In this document: positions 3,501-11,044 of the stretch, piece after piece | How positions within the stretch are numbered: the stretch's first letter is position 1 | Layout of the letters: each line of letters opens with the position of its first letter | From: Bacteroidota bacterium | Lineage (GTDB): Bacteria > Bacteroidota > Bacteroidia > Chitinophagales > Saprospiraceae | Reading direction: 5' to 3' | Assembly: GCA_024280135.1 (NCBI GenBank) | Contig: JAJRQS010000129.1 | Location: forward strand, 1 to 11,044 | DNA: 11,044 nt | Program-made: the position numbers and the translations under genes | Notes under the pieces: model-generated | The model's database searches: none | What the model was told of the DNA's origin: nothing | The model's input: only the letters and a program-made list of their open reading frames with translations

Positions 3501-5435
3501 TTTTATCTTAGAATCAAAATTATACTTGGCAATGGAATCTGTAAAATCAACTTGCCCGATGAAATCTAAATTGATATTTGGGTCTAAGCTTTTTAAGCTT
3601 CCATCAAAAAAGTTTTGTTCTAGCTTGCCATTTAGTACAATGTCTTGATAAATATATTTTTTATATTCAAATCGTTCAATAGCACCACTCAGTACGGCAT
3701 GAGCTGTATGCAAACGGATACCACCACCTTCCTTGACAACCGCATTAAATGAAATCAAGCCTAGCTCTTCGTTACTCATCCATTTTTTTAAATTAAAATC
3801 AATGACGGATAGTTTTCCAGAATACTTGGCTTTTTCTGTGCCGTTACTGATATCTAAATTCATATCAGCTTTGACTTGTCCGATGTCGGTTGTTAGCTCC
3901 CCATAGGCCACAAATTGATTAATAAAACCTTCAAGTTTTCCTTTAAATACAAGTGCGCCTAGTGAGTTGAGATTTGGTGGAGGGTTAAAACCAGGAATCA
4001 AAAGCTTAAGGGTAGGTATGTCAGTTCGTATTTCTTGCACATCGATATTGACGGAGGCATGGGCTTTATCAGAAAGATTGTTTATTTTTATTTTACCAAT
4101 CATTGCCGTTTTGCCGATAGAGATATTTAGATTATTGGCTCTAGGGTTTTCGAGCTTTCCAGCAAATTTTCCACTGACTTGAATAGACTCTTTAGCATTG
4201 AGTTTGAAGAACTTTTTTGTCTTTAATTTTTTTGCAAAATATAGAATGTCACGCATGGCAATTCTACTTTTTTGCAAATTAAGCTTGACATAGACTTTAT
4301 CTTTAAAAGCACTAAAGTCTTGATAGCTTCTATATTTAAAAGAAAGGTAATCGGTTATGTATGTGCCTTTTTGGCTTTTACTTTCATCGGGTGTCTTAAA
4401 GATAAATTCAGTCAGTTCTGTTTTTCGACTAGAAATAGTTGCTTGCCTCACACTAAGCTTCTCTATCTCAAATCCAGAATTCTCTACTAAGCTAAGATTT
4501 TCTATGCGTCCAGTAAAGGCTTTTTTATCAAATGAAAAATCCTTTATTCTGAAGTTAATAGCACTAACATCTAAATGATTAAAATCAACTAACTGCTCAG
4601 TCGTGTCTCTTGAAAAACTCTTATCATAATTATCACTAGAAAATTGCCCCTTTTGGATTAGGATGTCTTTTATGGTGAAAAGTAATGGAGTCGTATCTTG
4701 GATATCTGAATTTGACGGAAGGATATTTTGAACCAGACTATCTTGTTTATGCTTAAAAAATGAAAACCTGGGATTGCTGACATGTACACTTTTAAGAGCA
4801 AAATAATTGTGCTCAAGATTAAGGGTGTCAACTAGTACCTTGCCTTGAAAAGCATATGCATCAAAATTTTTCTTGCTGATGTCATTTTGACTATGCAGCT
4901 GGACATCATTTAAATTGATGCTTTTTAGCGCAAGCGAAATCTTCTTCTTCTTCTTCTTCTTCTTTGAATCTGTTTTGAAGTAGTCTAGGATAAATTGAGC
5001 ATTATGAGCTGTACTATTTTTTTCTCTTTTGAGTTGTATATTTGCGCCAGTCAATTCTATATCTTTGATGTAAAGATTATTGTAGAATAAAGAAAAAATA
5101 CCTCTATCAAGTGTCACTTGTACTTTCTTTGCTTGTAGCAAGGTGTCCTGCTGTTGATCTTCAAGAATGAGGTCTTTAAGGTAAAAACCATTGAGTAAAC
5201 TAAACTTAAAATCAGAAATGGAGATATGCGTTTGCAAATCTTTTTCCAACTTTGAAATAGTTTTATTTTTGAGGTAATTTTGTGTTGCAGGTAATTGAAG
5301 TGCGGCAAAAATAAAAAGTACTAAGAAAATAAAAAGTATAAGAATCCTTTTTGGCCATCTGACCAAAAATAGATAGAACCTTTCGGACATCGTCCGACTC
5401 TTTTTTTTAGTCTTTTTCTTTGATTCTTTTGGCAT
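543..5435 (-). CDS. tamB: TamB-like translocation/assembly module protein (DUF490 C-terminus)
   Basis: Complete gene of 1630 residues. TamB is an inner-membrane-anchored periplasm-spanning protein of the AsmA/bridge-like lipid-transfer type. It works with an outer-membrane Omp85 partner (TamA, or the lipoprotein TamL in Bacteroidota) in envelope assembly and lipid movement. Seen here: a Lys-rich cytoplasmic tail (residues 2-14), one membrane helix (about 31-48, RILILFIFLVLFIF then AALQLP), an AsmA-like N-terminal region, a Lys8 tract at 158-165, a very long beta-rich middle with repeated 'LNLSG...' style strands typical of the hydrophobic groove, and a C-terminal DUF490 region (about 1195-1625). 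That region includes GSGEFNLQYKRSGEFFINGQ, ISKGEYLFTLLNFINKPF, FVIEPGGTITW and VFGLLVFGTFLPPG. The ATG at 5435-5433 was chosen. A TTG immediately before it would add one Met and has no supporting ribosome site, and an internal ATG at 5390 would remove most of the basic tail. No Shine-Dalgarno sequence is visible, as is usual in the phylum. Length is within the range for Bacteroidota homologues. No omp85/tamL gene lies in the window. Confidence 0.93.
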   Translation of the reverse strand: MPKESKKKTKKKSRTMSERFYLFLVRWPKRILILFIFLVLFIFAALQLPATQNYLKNKTISKLEKDLQTHISISDFKFSLLNGFYLKDLILEDQQQDTLLQAKKVQVTLDRGIFSLFYNNLYIKDIELTGANIQLKREKNSTAHNAQFILDYFKTDSKKKKKKKKISLALKSINLNDVQLHSQNDISKKNFDAYAFQGKVLVDTLNLEHNYFALKSVHVSNPRFSFFKHKQDSLVQNILPSNSDIQDTTPLLFTIKDILIQKGQFSSDNYDKSFSRDTTEQLVDFNHLDVSAINFRIKDFSFDKKAFTGRIENLSLVENSGFEIEKLSVRQATISSRKTELTEFIFKTPDESKSQKGTYITDYLSFKYRSYQDFSAFKDKVYVKLNLQKSRIAMRDILYFAKKLKTKKFFKLNAKESIQVSGKFAGKLENPRANNLNISIGKTAMIGKIKINNLSDKAHASVNIDVQEIRTDIPTLKLLIPGFNPPPNLNSLGALVFKGKLEGFINQFVAYGELTTDIGQVKADMNLDISNGTEKAKYSGKLSVIDFNLKKWMSNEELGLISFNAVVKEGGGIRLHTAHAVLSGAIERFEYKKYIYQDIVLNGKLEQNFFDGSLKSLDPNINLDFIGQVDFTDSIAKYNFDSKIKSLNLYALHLSKQPLNIVGDFDLNLSGKELKEFSGNAQLNNLKLFNEQDSFQLDSAHIAVKLDDPKNQYLKIQSSVLNANMIGIFDLQSLPIALKSAFISRSPAFAKKLNINSDSLKSKKQDFTFDLAIHNSQNITQLLGLKIDTIAGVKLKGNFNNQAELVKINGYIKSIQFGHKSINNTEVSINGKPNILKARANIFEIQLNDKKSLPPIAINISVFPDTLDFRLKASNFSSVLKNVRFNGIILPKKDYYQLQFSPSNIHLAEDNWQISSNNYLRFSKDFLEAKNISFTSKEKQFELTTPTRNSLRLDLKHFDLSFINSLYNYDNLQYTGPFIANIQFNNIQERKDIRLEMEADTINFNKKPYGSFSLKANMPDFNSPVDVDLNIGKGLLTTAGYVHFAKSPSSWKGKNVPANSIFLDGNLKSFPFEIIEEIIPNGISETAGKFDGHIAIKGPLTSPEFDGYANILNGEMTIDYLKTHYFINNQKLIINTTQFNATGAKITDRLGNTASIVGGLRHRRFHAFSLDVVMSSNKFLVLDTKKGDNPLYYGTAIADLSAKFSGDFEQPALRIVGTTLRGTKLNLVFSDEEQVGETNFVQFVSFAEEAEKKKYQAEEVSTDATGLNIDMTFNFTEDADMKLIFDETAGDVIQSRGSGEFNLQYKRSGEFFINGQYVISKGEYLFTLLNFINKPFVIEPGGTITWSKDPMGAILDIQAVYQGLKAPIQNLIKEELKSFGSKSDVTEAQRPTSIDLGLLLSGPMMQPNIEFSLDIPNLIGNNKNYVSSKLSNIQNDPNELNRQVFGLLVFGTFLPPGNSLGIESNVGTGLTSTLSELLSSQFARHINSLLADVVGTGKIYSGMEVDLGVNIYQEDAAVGENAITSRVFNINLKNHFFNNRVTVQLGGNFSSNNPLNTTATSDFAGDILVEIILSKNRRYRMQVYNRFEPDYTTGSKNRRKTGFGLSYKKEFNSLSDLFKGMKEAVGDIEQ
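4941..4964 (-). repeat. (CTT)8 microsatellite, Lys8 tract inside tamB
   Basis: Eight perfect CTT triplets on the plus strand read as eight AAG codons on the coding strand, giving Lys 158-165 of TamB. The unit is three bases, so slippage would change the number of lysines without shifting frame. A short lysine run at about this place is, as far as I recall, common in Bacteroidota TamB/AsmA-like proteins. The tract may therefore be a tolerated linker between the N-terminal AsmA-like part and the following beta-rich region. The use of only AAG, with no AAA, is what makes it a true DNA microsatellite here. Confidence 0.9.
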
Positions 5436-5983: not shown

Positions 5984-6040
5984 ATGCGACAAATTTTAAT
6001 CTCGTTAATGCTCGTGCTGAGTATTAATTCTTTACACAGC
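5984..6040 (+). other. Sec signal peptide of the giant protein
   Basis: The start reads MRQILISLMLVLSINSLHS followed by QVV: one Arg near the N-terminus, a hydrophobic core LISLMLVLSI and a polar end. Cleavage is most likely after Ser19 or Gln20, the usual 'S-Q' junction of Bacteroidota signal peptides. No lipobox Cys follows directly (the first Cys is residue 25), so a soluble exported or T9SS-handled protein is favoured over a lipoprotein. Confidence 0.85.
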
Positions 6041-9000
6041 CAAGTGGTGGCTCCTTGTAGTCCTGCTGATGATTTAGCTTATGATTTTTGCACAGATGTA
6101 TGTGCTATTTGTGACATAGGCCTACTAAATGGATATGTGGGTAATACAGGTAATTGGTCAGGTGATGTCTTTTTTGCTGGTGATGTGTTTTGTATGTCAG
6201 GTGGAATAAGTGGAGTTGTCCAGAACAATGGATGGGTGGCTTTTGTCGCTACATCTTCATCCTTAAATTTGCTTTTTACTTATTCGAATTGTACAGGAGG
6301 CGATGCTAATGGTTCGGGTCTTCAAACAGCTCTTTATGAAATGGTGGGAGGATGCCACAAAAATAATGCTGTAAAAGTTGCTTGCCATGCAGAATTATCA
6401 ACTAATAGTTATAACCTTATTGCCAATGGTTTAGTAGTGGGAACGACATATTATCTGATGATGGATGGATGGGCAGATTCAGTTTGCGATTTTGAAATTG
6501 AAGTAATTGAGGGAGCAGGTGACCCTGCAGTGTTGGCTTCTACACCAATAGGAGGTCCACAATCTATTTGCCCGAGTGAGAGTACAGCATTTACTTTTGG
6601 ACCTGTTGCAGGAGCCTATTATTCAACTTGGGTTCTACCTCCTGGTGCTACGATTTTGGGTGAGAACCCTGCAACGGTAACATTAGATGTTGATGCACCT
6701 ACTACTGTTTATATAGATTTTGGTCCTAATCCAGCTAGCGGACAAATTTGTGTCACGCCATATAACGGTTGCCAAATAGGTAGCGAAGAATGTTTGCCCG
6801 TGACAATAGAGCCGATTCCAGATACACAATTAGATCCACTAACGGTTTGTTTTGGAGAAACTTATACTTGGATTGATGGGAATAATTATACCAATAATAA
6901 TACTGCATCTTTCCCTACAACGATTACTAAACAAAAGCTTTTTGGTGGCGGCAGTTCGGGATTTTGTGATAGCACTGTTATTCAAGATATTGTTTATTTA
7001 CCGAATCTAGAAAAAAATCTTCCTGACATCATAGCTTGTCAAGGCGAAACAGTTACGGTTGGGAGTGAAGTCGTGACGACTACACAAGTTGTTTCTACGA
7101 CCGTGACGAATTATGCAGGATGTGATAGCACCATTAATGTTTTTGTCCAATTTATTCCAAATAATGCTGAAGCTAATGGACCATTAGCAATCGGTTGTTC
7201 TGGCAGTAATCCGCAATTAGTCGGTTCTGGAACGACTTCTAATGGCACCTATGCTTGGTATGATCCAAGTGATAATCTTATCAGCAATACTTTAACAGCT
7301 GATCCTACAGTTTCTGGAGATTACTATTTTGTCGTTACGAATGTTAGTGGTGGTACTACTTGTAAAGATACTGCAATAGCTTCTGTTACGGCTGATTTGG
7401 CGCTTCCGCTAAATGTAATGGCTACGGTTTCTGGTACCATCGGTTGTACGGCAAATGCCTCAGCCACTTTGACCGGTACTTCTTCCACACCAGGGGCTAC
7501 TTTTCAATGGCTAGATCCTTCTGCAAATCCGATAGGTGGTTCTTCAGCTACTGCAACGGTCACCCAAACGGGAACTTACCAGTTAGTAGCGACCAATCCG
7601 ACTAGTGGCTGTACAGCGACATTCGATATCGAAGTCATGGGGGATTCTTCCGTTCCAGATATAACAGCAACAGGTGGATCTATCGATTGTAATAATGCTT
7701 CTGCCACAATTTCGGCTGCCTCTACTACAGGTGGAGTCACTTTTGCGTGGACGGGTGCTAGCAATTATGCTTCAGCTATGGCTTCTAATTCAGTTTCTAA
7801 CCCTGGAAATTACACGGTTGTTGTAACAGATCCAAGCAATGGTTGTACCAACTCTACTTCCGTGGAAGTGGAGGATAATACGGCTCAGCCTAGTGTTACA
7901 GCTGCTGGAAATACAGTAGGTTGTGCTTCTGCAGGCGTGACAATTACCGCAGTTTCGGCAGACGCAACTTCTTTTAGTTGGACAGGGCCTAATAATTATG
8001 CTTCAAGTATGCAAAACCCAACGGATGTAACGGATGCGGGAACTTATACAGTAGAAGTAACCAATAGTTTTGGTTGCACCAATACGGCTACTGCAGTAGT
8101 AGATGCCGATGATAATTTACCAACCGTAAACCCTACTGGGGGAACGGTTTCTTGTAATGATATGAATGTGACTGTGGCGGCCAATGCGGTTCCGGCCAAT
8201 TTAGATTATAGCTGGTCAGGTCCGAATAGTTTCTCCAGTTCGGCTCCTAATTTTATGACTAGTGAACCTGGAACTTATAGCGTAACGGTTACGAACATGG
8301 CGAATCAATGTACTGCGGAGGGTACCGTTTTGGTCGGAGAGGATCTAACACAACCTATTCTAAGCTTAACAGCTGATGCAACAGGAATAGATTGTAATAA
8401 TACAGATGTGCTATTGACGGCAACTTCCAATGCAAATGATTTTAGTTGGTCGGGAAATGGTATTAATAATACAACCTCTTCAGTTACCGTATCACAAGGC
8501 GGAGCTTATACCGTTCAAGTAACTGGTGCAAATGGTTGTAACACTTCTGAAAGTATAACCATTGATGAAGATACCGCACAACCTGATGTTACAGCTGCCG
8601 ATGTAGATATTACATGTTTGGTTATGAACCCAACGGTTTCTGCCACTTCAACAGTCGATCCGACCACATCCTATAGCTGGACGGGGCCTAGTTCCTTTTC
8701 AGCAAATACAGCCTCTGCTGAAGTAACTATACCGGGTACTTATACCGTAGTGATTACAAATAATAGTAATGGTTGTACCAACACGACAACAGTTGAAGCC
8801 AATGATTTAGTAGTTGTACCGAATTTGACAACTACAGGAAGTATGTTAGGATGTGGTAGTAATGCAACAATGATTTCGGCTAGCTCAGCTGCAGGCTCTA
8901 CTTATAGCTGGACTGGACCGAATAGTTTTGCGGGTACAGGTAGTTCTGTAAGTGTTCCATCTGTTGGTGTTTACACCGTGATTGCAACAGATGGAAATGG

Positions 9001-11044
9001 ATGTACTGTTGAGGGTACAGCAGAAGTACTACCAGATGTTTCGTTGCCAGAATTGACCACCACTCAATCAGGATTAATTACTTGTGACAATACTTCTTCG
9101 GCAACTTTTACAGCTTCTTCAACCACCCCAGGTGTTACCTATCAATGGACAGGGCCTGGTGTAAATTCAACAGATCTTTCTATAGATGTATCTGATTATC
9201 AAGAATATATCGTCGTGGTGACAGCACCAAATGGTTGTACTAACCAAGCGGCTTTAACGGCAGATGTTGATATGGATCCGCCGGCTTTGACGAATATGAA
9301 TGCATCTAATATTTTAAATTGCACAAATCAAGAAGCAACGCTGTCAGCGACCACTAATGCAATCAACTATCAATGGACAGGTCCTGCTAGCTTTTCAAGC
9401 AATGATCCAATGCCAACGGTCTCTACAGCTGGAACCTATTCCGTTGTGGTCACAGGAGGGAATGGTTGCACAAGTACAGATGATGTATTAGTAGAAGAAG
9501 AGGTTGCGCTTCCTAATGTAACAGTTGCCGATGGAGAAGTCGGATGTACGACACCGTCCACGATTTTAACAGCAACTTCTACAAGTAATATTACAAATTA
9601 TGCTTGGTCTGGTCCAGGTGGCTTTAATGAGTCCACTCAGGCAGTTACGGTTTCCATGGCTGGGGATTATACTGTTGTGGTCACGGGCGAAAATGGTTGT
9701 ACTCAATCAACTACCGCTACGGTTACAGCGTCTTCGGACCTGCCAGAGGTTTCTGCAACAGGTGGAGAATTAACTTGTATGCTTACGGATTTGGATTTGA
9801 TGGGAAGTTCTTCGACATCTGGAGCAACAGGTGTTTGGACGCAAGGCGTTAATCAAGTCGCTACTGATTTTGCATACTCGGCAACGACTCCTGGAGATTA
9901 TACCTTGACTGTTACAGCACCGAACGGATGCACACAAGAATTAACAGTGACGGTTACAGAAAGTATTGACGAACCCAATGTCTCGGCGTTTGCACCAGAA
10001 GAACTAACTTGTCAAGCAACCACGATTTCTCTTGAAGGAAATTCCACAACACAAGATGTAACTTTTGCATGGTCTGGACCTAATGGCTATACTTCTTCTC
10101 TGCAAAACCCAAATGATATTTCTACCGAAGGGACATACACCTTGACGGTTACAGGACTTAACGGTTGTACCCATTCAGCAGATGTCGATGTCGTGACAAA
10201 TGGTGAATTGCCTGATGTAACGGTCACTGGAGCAGACTTAAATTGCGAAATAGTTGAAGTGACCCTATTGGGTGAATCTAGTACGCCTGGCGTTACTTAT
10301 CAATGGTCGGGTACAGGTATTTCAAATCCAACTTTGCAAAATCAAGTGGTTTCGGAGCCAGGGATATATACCGTTGTGGTCACAGCAAATAACGGTTGTA
10401 CAAAAGAAGCAAGTGTTGACATAGCACAAGACTTAACACCTCCAGTTATTACAGATGCTCAAGGTGGAACCATCCTTTGCGGAAGCTCCAGTACAACTTT
10501 GATGGGATCGTCATCAACTGCTGGTGCAACTTATACTTGGGTAGGACCAGGAGGCGTAGAATATAATGAAGCGAATCCAACCGTTGATGAAGTAGGAACT
10601 TATACATTCGTAGTGACTAATCCGACCACACAATGTACAGCTAGCCAAGACGTTGAAGTTCAAGAAGATAACAATGCACCGGACGGACAAGCTTCTGTAG
10701 GAGGAGAAATTACTTGCGTAAATAACGAAGTCCAAATTGCTGGATTTTCCACGACAGATGATGTTACCTATACCTGGACATCTCCTTCTAATCAAACAAT
10801 TGATGGACCAGGTCCTCATGTTGTGACAGAAGAAGGTGATTATAAATTAGTCATTCTTGCCCCTAATGGTTGTGAAACAATTAAAAATTTAGCAATACCC
10901 GTTAATAAAGAAGAGCCAGGAGCAACAATTGATAATATAACTTTGGGATGTGGAGAAGTCGGTACGCTATCTGCTAGCACGAATCCCCAAGGTACAGCCG
11001 CTTATGTTTGGTCAGGACCTAATGGGTATTCAAGCACAATGACA
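5984..11044 (+). CDS. Giant secreted multi-domain Ig-like repeat protein, probable surface adhesin; 3' end outside the window
   Basis: An open frame of 1687 codons runs from ATG 5984 to the last base without a stop. The start is well fixed: an in-frame TAA lies at 5966-5968 and no other start codon lies between. Architecture: signal peptide (1-19), N-terminal beta-rich domain with many Cys (25-181), PKD-like domain (187-279), two Cys modules ending in CDST (280-392), then 17 tandem Ig-like units (393 onward), the last cut by the window. Each complete unit carries two Cys about 51 residues apart, suggesting one disulfide per unit, and a core Trp usually in a W-S/T-G-P motif. Known of the style: such proteins in Bacteroidota are usually exported by Sec and the type IX secretion system and end in a sorting or 'gliding motility-associated' C-terminal domain. 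That end is not visible, so T9SS export is inference. The protein is Ser/Thr/Asn/Val-rich, acidic and nearly free of Lys and Arg. Adhesion, biofilm matrix or surface coat is the likely role. No enzyme motif is seen. Confidence 0.88.
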   Translation, partial: MRQILISLMLVLSINSLHSQVVAPCSPADDLAYDFCTDVCAICDIGLLNGYVGNTGNWSGDVFFAGDVFCMSGGISGVVQNNGWVAFVATSSSLNLLFTYSNCTGGDANGSGLQTALYEMVGGCHKNNAVKVACHAELSTNSYNLIANGLVVGTTYYLMMDGWADSVCDFEIEVIEGAGDPAVLASTPIGGPQSICPSESTAFTFGPVAGAYYSTWVLPPGATILGENPATVTLDVDAPTTVYIDFGPNPASGQICVTPYNGCQIGSEECLPVTIEPIPDTQLDPLTVCFGETYTWIDGNNYTNNNTASFPTTITKQKLFGGGSSGFCDSTVIQDIVYLPNLEKNLPDIIACQGETVTVGSEVVTTTQVVSTTVTNYAGCDSTINVFVQFIPNNAEANGPLAIGCSGSNPQLVGSGTTSNGTYAWYDPSDNLISNTLTADPTVSGDYYFVVTNVSGGTTCKDTAIASVTADLALPLNVMATVSGTIGCTANASATLTGTSSTPGATFQWLDPSANPIGGSSATATVTQTGTYQLVATNPTSGCTATFDIEVMGDSSVPDITATGGSIDCNNASATISAASTTGGVTFAWTGASNYASAMASNSVSNPGNYTVVVTDPSNGCTNSTSVEVEDNTAQPSVTAAGNTVGCASAGVTITAVSADATSFSWTGPNNYASSMQNPTDVTDAGTYTVEVTNSFGCTNTATAVVDADDNLPTVNPTGGTVSCNDMNVTVAANAVPANLDYSWSGPNSFSSSAPNFMTSEPGTYSVTVTNMANQCTAEGTVLVGEDLTQPILSLTADATGIDCNNTDVLLTATSNANDFSWSGNGINNTTSSVTVSQGGAYTVQVTGANGCNTSESITIDEDTAQPDVTAADVDITCLVMNPTVSATSTVDPTTSYSWTGPSSFSANTASAEVTIPGTYTVVITNNSNGCTNTTTVEANDLVVVPNLTTTGSMLGCGSNATMISASSAAGSTYSWTGPNSFAGTGSSVSVPSVGVYTVIATDGNGCTVEGTAEVLPDVSLPELTTTQSGLITCDNTSSATFTASSTTPGVTYQWTGPGVNSTDLSIDVSDYQEYIVVVTAPNGCTNQAALTADVDMDPPALTNMNASNILNCTNQEATLSATTNAINYQWTGPASFSSNDPMPTVSTAGTYSVVVTGGNGCTSTDDVLVEEEVALPNVTVADGEVGCTTPSTILTATSTSNITNYAWSGPGGFNESTQAVTVSMAGDYTVVVTGENGCTQSTTATVTASSDLPEVSATGGELTCMLTDLDLMGSSSTSGATGVWTQGVNQVATDFAYSATTPGDYTLTVTAPNGCTQELTVTVTESIDEPNVSAFAPEELTCQATTISLEGNSTTQDVTFAWSGPNGYTSSLQNPNDISTEGTYTLTVTGLNGCTHSADVDVVTNGELPDVTVTGADLNCEIVEVTLLGESSTPGVTYQWSGTGISNPTLQNQVVSEPGIYTVVVTANNGCTKEASVDIAQDLTPPVITDAQGGTILCGSSSTTLMGSSSTAGATYTWVGPGGVEYNEANPTVDEVGTYTFVVTNPTTQCTASQDVEVQEDNNAPDGQASVGGEITCVNNEVQIAGFSTTDDVTYTWTSPSNQTIDGPGPHVVTEEGDYKLVILAPNGCETIKNLAIPVNKEEPGATIDNITLGCGEVGTLSASTNPQGTAAYVWSGPNGYSSTMT
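6056..6526 (+). other. N-terminal Cys-containing beta-rich domain (residues 25-181)
   Basis: The domain holds ten or more Cys and the pattern NNGWVAF near its middle, then SGLQTALYE, paired Cys and a closing GLVVGTTYYLMMDGWADSVC strand pair. This resembles the PPC/CUB-like beta-sandwich domains that open many Bacteroidota surface proteins and are often followed by a PKD-like domain, as here. I recognise the style but cannot name a family with certainty. A ligand- or glycan-binding role is possible and not shown. Confidence 0.55.
6542..6820 (+). other. PKD-like domain (residues 187-279)
   Basis: The order GGPQSICPSE, then a tyrosine-rich turn, WVLPPGATILG, a strand ending in VYIDFG, and ICVTPYNGC matches the PKD-like domain of Bacteroidota secreted proteins. 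In that domain the layout is 'CPG...Y.W..P.G..I......V.W/F....G.I.V...N.CG'. It is a beta-sandwich spacer, usually in adhesins. This single copy separates the N-terminal domain from the Cys modules and the long array. Confidence 0.7.
6821..7159 (+). other. Two 'C-GET ... CDST' modules (residues 280-392)
   Basis: Module A (about 280-341) runs from VCFGETYTWIDG to FCDSTVIQDIVYLP. Module B (about 342-392) runs from ACQGETVTVGSE to NYAGCDSTINVFVQF. Both share a first Cys followed by G-E-T and a second Cys in C-D-S-T before a final strand. This recurring short module is familiar from large secreted proteins of Saprospiria-like bacteria. Module A has an insertion with a Gly/Ser-rich turn (FGGGSSGF). 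They form the junction to the main array. Confidence 0.6.
7160..11044 (+). repeat. Tandem array of at least 17 Ig-like units of about 78 residues
   Basis: The first Cys codon of each unit begins at 7196, 7445, 7688, 7922, 8153, 8393, 8615, 8852, 9083, 9320, 9545, 9776, 10010, 10244, 10478, 10715 and 10949. Successive spacings are 83, 81, 78, 77, 80, 74, 79, 77, 79, 75, 77, 78, 78, 78, 79 and 78 residues. The pattern is: G-x-(V/I/L)-x-C, two strands rich in Ser/Thr, aromatic-x-W-(S/T)-G-P, a short variable stretch, G-x-Y-T-V-x-V-T, N-G-C-T, a strand, then an acidic linker ending in Pro. Cys to Cys is about 51-52 residues. Units 1 and 2 have W-x-D-P-S instead of W-x-G-P, and unit 12 has W-T-Q-G. 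Unit 17 is cut before its second Cys. DNA identity between units is low apart from short patches, so this is an old array kept at the protein level. Confidence 0.9.

Follow-up and report, generated by a model that had tools for sequence, protein, structure and literature searches.

How can a bacterial protein run for more than a thousand residues without a single lysine or arginine, and what keeps these residues out? The question is raised by a gene at one end of an 11,044-nucleotide stretch of DNA from a member of Saprospiraceae (Bacteroidota), referred to here in its full length as the window. A preliminary description, made from the sequence alone, had reported 1012 consecutive residues free of Lys and Arg and had proposed selection, either for a very acidic fibre resistant to trypsin-like proteases or against charge that would bind the cell's own envelope.

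A Lys/Arg-free run in a truncated, probable adhesin gene

The frame (5984-11044, forward strand) stays open through the window end and encodes 1687 residues. Since the window is the whole of its contig (C179 of genome G000), the gene is truncated at its 3' end; judged from orthologs of 2293-2306 aa, about three quarters of a protein of approximately 2300 residues are visible. The source is a draft genome, 79.7% complete. Translation confirmed the reported counts. The sole Arg is residue 2, and ten Lys occupy residues 126, 131, 316, 318, 344, 461, 1474, 1621, 1634 and 1642. The Lys/Arg-free run comprises residues 462-1473 (7367-10402, forward strand), exactly 1012 aa. It is bordered by K461 (7364-7366), which directly follows the second Cys of its repeat unit, and by K1474 (10403-10405), located two residues past the second Cys of another unit. 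Asp and Glu, said earlier to be frequent, account for 158 of the 1687 residues (9.4%), slightly less than the 11.5% found in a sample of the genome. The protein is thus acidic because bases are lacking and not because acids were added.

GC content of the gene is 42.8% (26.6% at third positions) versus 33.5% for the genome's sampled contigs, a gap that is probably due to amino-acid make-up. The adjoining TamB gene contains a (TCT)8 tract (4940-4964, minus strand) that encodes at least eight consecutive Lys; K+R content of TamB is 12.4%.

The predicted protein starts with a probable Sec signal peptide (5984-6040, forward strand), recognized by eye in the translation, which holds the only Arg. 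It is followed by a Cys-rich, all-beta head (residues 20-388; 6041-7147, forward strand) whose second domain is Ig/PKD-like according to the predicted structure (model m2c32649684b9 of residues 20-399, mean pLDDT 87.2). Many Cys of the head are invariant over 19 aligned sequences, and its match to PF19408 (PKD_6) reaches 22 bits, under the cut-off of 25. Cys spacing, unit alignment and modelling delimit sixteen whole Ig-like units of about 77 aa with two Cys each (residues 389-1639; 7148-10900, forward strand). By Cys spacing and unit alignment, a partial seventeenth unit (10901-11044, forward strand) is cut by the contig end. A model of three units (mean pLDDT 82.5) corresponds to an Ig-like beta-sandwich according to Foldseek and VIA matches, and Pfam search of the adhesin detected the Sp38 Ig domain above its cut-off and Ig_2 below its own. 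Units are 18-48% identical to each other (mean 33%), and Tandem Repeats Finder reported no array inside the gene. The repeats are therefore old, and neither assembly collapse nor recent duplication is likely.

Relation to known surface proteins

The closest solved relative of the repeats is GhpA of Aureispira sp. CCB-QB1 (PDB 9flp, 9fls, 9flu, 9flv, 9flw, 9flx, 9fly and 9g8b), whose Ig-like units are homologous by both sequence and fold search. This grappling hook protein A, a chain of 5898 aa versus about 2300 aa for orthologs of our adhesin, is described as a heptameric hook (PMC11205867). Sequence and models of the adhesin gave no sign of oligomers or of a role in predation. Residues 20-399 (the head) gave no significant sequence match in PDB and none to GhpA. 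In Foldseek, fragments of GhpA were the top hits of the head, though weak ones (3.1e-6 and up, TM to query 0.24-0.27), and its matches in VIA-align mostly cover the second, Ig/Fn3-like domain.

Similarly to SprB and type B adhesins (PF13585/TIGR04131), the adhesin is a long repeated surface protein whose orthologs end in a type B sorting domain. SprB repeats (PF13573) occur in two distant relatives, above the cut-off in P0010 and just below it in P0013. The visible 1687 aa contain none at E<=1e-3; the missing C-terminal part could hold some, as in P0010. Ig-like RTX adhesins of the MpAFP RII type use a different secretion system. The tandem Ig-like stalk of such Ca-stabilised adhesins (MpAFP RII, PDB 4p99 and 5irb) appeared as similar in fold searches; in contrast to it, our adhesin has two Cys per unit, and its three-unit piece is without sequence match to it at E<=1. 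Lysine deserts, i.e. long conserved Lys-free stretches, have been linked to ubiquitin or Pup tagging (PMC10665810, PMC10169902). The adhesin differs from them in that its run is free of Arg too and in that the protein is expected outside the cell.

Four orthologs (P0002-P0005) are 51-53% identical to the visible adhesin over 99-100% of its length. All four carry PF13585, the type B sorting domain of the type IX secretion system (T9SS), in precomputed Pfam annotation, and P0004 matches both Pfam and NCBIfam (TIGR04131) models. The visible adhesin itself stops before any such C-terminal region, as the contig ends there. The T9SS translocon is present in its own genome (SprA_N, 3.1e-147), along with 14 PorP/SprF matches elsewhere in that genome. 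Near the orthologs of G001, G002 and G003, the ten neighbouring ORFs scanned, a subset, contained no PorP/SprF. Several of the relatives bear Saprospiraceae names. We conclude that the gene product is very probably a T9SS type B cell-surface adhesin composed of Cys-rich head, Ig-like stalk and C-terminal sorting domain.

As to genomic context, the ortholog in G001 also adjoins a divergent TamB gene. In two genomes of the same genus, another type B protein, PKD-like and 718 or 726 aa in length, comes after the ortholog (G001 and G002; L046 10533-12686, minus strand, and L094 6725-8902, plus strand). The ortholog in G003 is not directly followed by one. PF13585 proteins are especially numerous in G032, where a genome of 3.4 Mb yielded at least 123 matches versus 14-62 in the other 29 genomes searched.

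The run in its own genome and in relatives

As a background for the run, we took 92 ORFs of at least 100 aa from 20 contigs of the same genome (134,547 of 2,532,008 bases). K+R amount to 10.5% in this sample, and at such frequency the probability of a Lys/Arg-free run of 1012 residues is about 10^-48.9 per start. The run is far from chance. The longest one among the sampled ORFs has 422 residues (median 33.5), far short of 1012. Two longest runs per genome were also recorded in stretches of G001 (763 in the ortholog, then 752) and G002 (694 in the ortholog, then 490), some of these stretches having been picked for holding relatives of the adhesin.

Relatives of the adhesin comprise 120 proteins among the matches listed, out of 2725 matches from 8000 candidates scored; they were retrieved by words shared with a Lys/Arg-free query, which biases the set toward K/R-poor matches. 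Their longest Lys/Arg-free runs have a median of 903 residues (quartiles 557 and 1520, maximum 2132), and 56 of the 120 equal or exceed 1012. Runs of this length are thus shared by related repeat proteins when these are found by similarity, and the refuting observation named in the preliminary description is partly borne out; among 62 proteins chosen by their sorting domain (see below), the longest run has 835 residues and none reaches 1012. The four full orthologs nearest to the window have shorter runs (410-763).

Distribution of basic residues along the chain was followed in 87 listed relatives of 2100-2320 aa, a length range that substitutes here for orthology. Median K+R is 1.87% for the head, 0.28% for the repeat array and 5.14% for the final 350 aa. 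The array is poorer than the head in 80 of the 87 proteins and poorer than the tail in every one of them, and in ten of them arrays of 1393-1552 residues contain no Lys or Arg at all. Asp and Glu do not follow suit. Their median in the same arrays is 4.6%, and in 119 listed relatives (fragment P0001 left out) K+R shows no correlation with D+E (rho -0.02). High acidity, as proposed in the preliminary description, is therefore not the constant feature of these fibres.

K/R depletion is not an absolute rule. Fourteen named loci from genome contigs, found by similarity, range from 0 to 4.9% K+R in the matched frame. A natural Lys-bearing counterpart is a frame of 11186 aa on G022:C29 (L106 5832-20000 and L107 1-19389), which is composed of the same Ig-like repeats. 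K+R is 3.7% in one and 6.3% in the other of two stretches that were read, and the longest Lys/Arg-free run has 115 residues. The frame ends in a weak match to a type A sorting domain, below threshold (22.7 bits, cut-off 27). The fold thus allows Lys.

Selection against Lys and Arg

A single base change would turn 495 of the run's 1012 codons into Lys or Arg codons. The adhesin was compared with its five nearest relatives, each comparison providing 181-489 substituted sites. Lys or Arg was gained at 1, 4, 2, 3 and 5 of these sites, respectively, versus 19, 50, 51, 50 and 54 expected from BLOSUM62. Summed up, 15 gains stand against about 225 expected, with the reservation that the five comparisons are mutually dependent and BLOSUM is not specific to the fold. 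All 15 are Lys and none is Arg. Scaling the expectation by the fold-matched control described below would still leave a large deficit. Selection against Lys and Arg, suggested in the preliminary description, is supported by these counts.

Depletion in T9SS passengers and control families

We wondered if the depletion is peculiar to this family. To reduce the bias of the similarity search, PF13585 matches were collected from 30 related genomes, and 62 proteins with frames of at least 300 aa, taken in the order of listing, were analysed; they represent the best-scoring sorting domains rather than a random draw, and 25 of them are cut at the 5' end. Without the sorting domain, these type B passengers have a K+R median of 1.78% (range 0-5.5%), while their sorting domains have 8.14% (2.3-14.0%). 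The passenger is the poorer part in all 62 proteins. Its K+R content correlates neither with its length (rho 0.01, n=62) nor with D+E (rho -0.05, 60 of the 62). Asp is raised in type B passengers (8.4% versus 5.6% in background) and Glu is lowered (3.7% versus 5.6%).

Three families served as controls; L240 was dropped from the control set for being too short, and L241-L245 and L274-L275 were left unused since their coordinates were lacking. Type A passengers have 4.24% K+R (n=24, 0.2-9.35), TonB barrels exported by Sec 10.0% (n=28, 7.4-13.8) and periplasmic Sec-exported M23 proteins 13.0% (n=30, 9.6-16.5). Over the 500 aa that precede the sorting domain, K+R is 1.6% in type B and 4.2% in type A proteins. 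Of 60 type B proteins, none reaches the lowest value among TonB or M23 proteins, and overlap exists with type A. Depletion is therefore associated with T9SS passengers, and Sec export in itself does not entail it.

A fold-matched control was provided by periplasmic Ig-like PF13715 domains of the same genomes, of which 27 from up to 30 loci were used. Pooled, they contain 6.26% K+R and 0.17% His. The Ig-like fold thus roughly halves K/R and strips most His, and still leaves K/R at about 20 times the array median of the relatives. Fold explains part of the depletion. Low His of the 119 listed relatives (0.05%) was also considered as a proof of charge avoidance and was dropped, since His is low in the fold-matched control too.

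What may keep Lys and Arg out of the stalk

In our best explanation, the protein is a T9SS type B adhesin with Lys and Arg kept off its exposed stalk, a reading in which we place about as much trust as doubt. The Lys/Arg-free run would make up most of the stalk, which would be held at the outer membrane by the sorting domain. Type B proteins attach to PorP-like surface barrels, and the Porphyromonas gingivalis example keeps its sorting domain uncleaved (PMC9143113; also PMC10202324). Stalk and cell surface would thus be permanent neighbours. Positive patches on the stalk would bind the polyanionic surface of the cell itself (LPS, capsule, DNA) or neighbouring stalks. A stalk made of small uncharged Thr, Ser, Gly, Asn and Val with some Asp and Glu would stay extended and non-sticky, and binding would be left to the head.

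As for the cause, positive charge may be selected against where this long and dense fibre is exposed, outside the cell. We hold this with slightly more doubt than the explanation as a whole, and it is reached by exclusion of other causes. Of the ideas in the preliminary description, charge avoidance is in this sense the best one remaining. K/R exclusion is independent of D+E and of loop or strand position, as a general charge rule predicts. In the related genomes sampled, passengers are K/R-poor, while their sorting domains and two Sec-exported families outside T9SS are normal. Against this reading, depletion is stronger in the stalk than in the head, although both are exposed.

Protease proofing, the other idea put forward earlier, would mean that Lys and Arg were removed as sites at which trypsin-like enzymes from prey, predators or neighbours could cleave. 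It is consistent with the fact that, among residues compared with the fold control, K and R fall the most (K from 4.49 to 0.43%, R from 1.77 to 0.21%; E from 8.15 to 1.51%), and that the remaining K/R precede Asp more often than expected (9.6 versus 3.9%) and Pro slightly more often (9.3 versus 7.0%). On the other hand, Glu is depleted too (ratio 0.27 to background). Cleavage sites in loops are not specifically avoided: K/R are equally rare in exposed loops (0.98%) and exposed strands (1.01%; 34 versus 27 proteins, p=0.44), with strands assigned from a single model out of five (mean pLDDT of the remaining four, 42-49). A per-column impression of loop-specific avoidance failed in this comparison. 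The trypsin profile (PF00089) has matches in 20 of 20 genomes; one in G031 is strong and spans the full profile (3.1e-62), and all others stay at or below 78 bits. The two matches in the adhesin's own genome (5.0e-19 and 2.1e-11) are moderate and partial, starting near profile position 26; we take these for HtrA-like proteins. Protease proofing is unlikely to be the main reason.

A cost of outer-membrane passage would arise if the SprA pore or its partners passed positively charged passengers slowly. Depletion indeed tracks the use of T9SS, being strongest in type B, intermediate in type A and missing in the two families exported without it (10-13% K+R). Nevertheless, the sorting domain crosses at the same step with its 8.1% K+R, there is no trend with passenger length, and the 11186-aa frame of G022, with its weak type A match at the end, tolerates 3.7-6.3%. 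We consider such cost rather unlikely.

Inheritance alone, in which K/R-poor Ig-like sandwiches were simply copied as units, is improbable. The PF13715 domains, with their lowered K+R, speak for it. The same value is still far above that of the arrays, the units diverged to 33% mean identity with no gain of K/R, and the same repeats in G022 do carry Lys.

Adaptation to salt has little to recommend it as a cause. Marine bacterial extracellular proteins have less Arg and Lys and more Asp and Glu (PMC11928666), and the raised Asp of type B passengers would fit, though their Glu falls. Two groundwater loci among the 14 named ones are equally K/R-poor (L012 0.95%, L015 1.13%), and D+E is not raised in the arrays.

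Least credible is a cost of Sec export, where positive residues, chiefly Arg, would delay translocation by SecYEG, at the greatest expense to very long chains. Transport of Arg is rate-limiting for Sec in vitro (PMC9110029), and the gains at substituted sites, Lys without any Arg, point the same way. The controls largely refute this: TonB barrels and M23 proteins pass through Sec with normal K+R, type B proteins show no effect of length, K:R in the 119 listed relatives matches a background from which proteins with runs of at least 120 residues were excluded (2.04 versus 1.96), and in 60 type B proteins the loss is greater for Lys than for Arg (ratio 1.05).

Nitrogen saving was rejected as a driver, since the Asn/Gln/Trp part of side-chain nitrogen exceeds the background value of 0.102 (window array 0.119, relatives 0.129), total side-chain nitrogen being 0.126 in the window array versus 0.334 in background. 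D[ST][AILVMT] is the O-glycosylation motif of Bacteroidota. It was rejected as a reason for the composition of the stalk, because the window array has 2 such sequons versus 9.2 in shuffles. In 60 type B passengers (L156-L215), the motif occurs 1238 times, compared with counts of 586 after shuffling and 648 when the motif is reversed; judging by these counts, O-glycosylation of type B passengers in general is possible.

Significance

The protein itself is of an ordinary kind, a T9SS Ig-like adhesin, and the composition rule is the point. The rule is broader than the run of 1012 residues and has been quantified for one set of related genomes. Results of our literature search, to which this statement is limited, contained no account of a K/R ban in T9SS passengers. 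As a tentative generalization, which we would sooner doubt than defend, Bacteroidota might exclude basic residues from T9SS passengers as a general rule. Such a rule would be enforced downstream of Sec, either at the outer membrane or on the cell surface, and would be at its strictest in type B stalks, with stalks of 1000-2100 residues free of Lys and Arg as its extreme products.

Low K+R sets type B passengers apart from other exported proteins and poses a concrete question, namely whether surface electrostatics or outer-membrane transport is responsible. Near invisibility to tryptic proteomics, foreseen in the preliminary description, is a direct consequence of the sequence, and surface proteomics based on trypsin may miss such fibres. 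If the general rule is true, T9SS surface passengers could be recognized by it from their sequence, and standard tryptic proteomics would have systematically missed major surface fibres of Bacteroidota.
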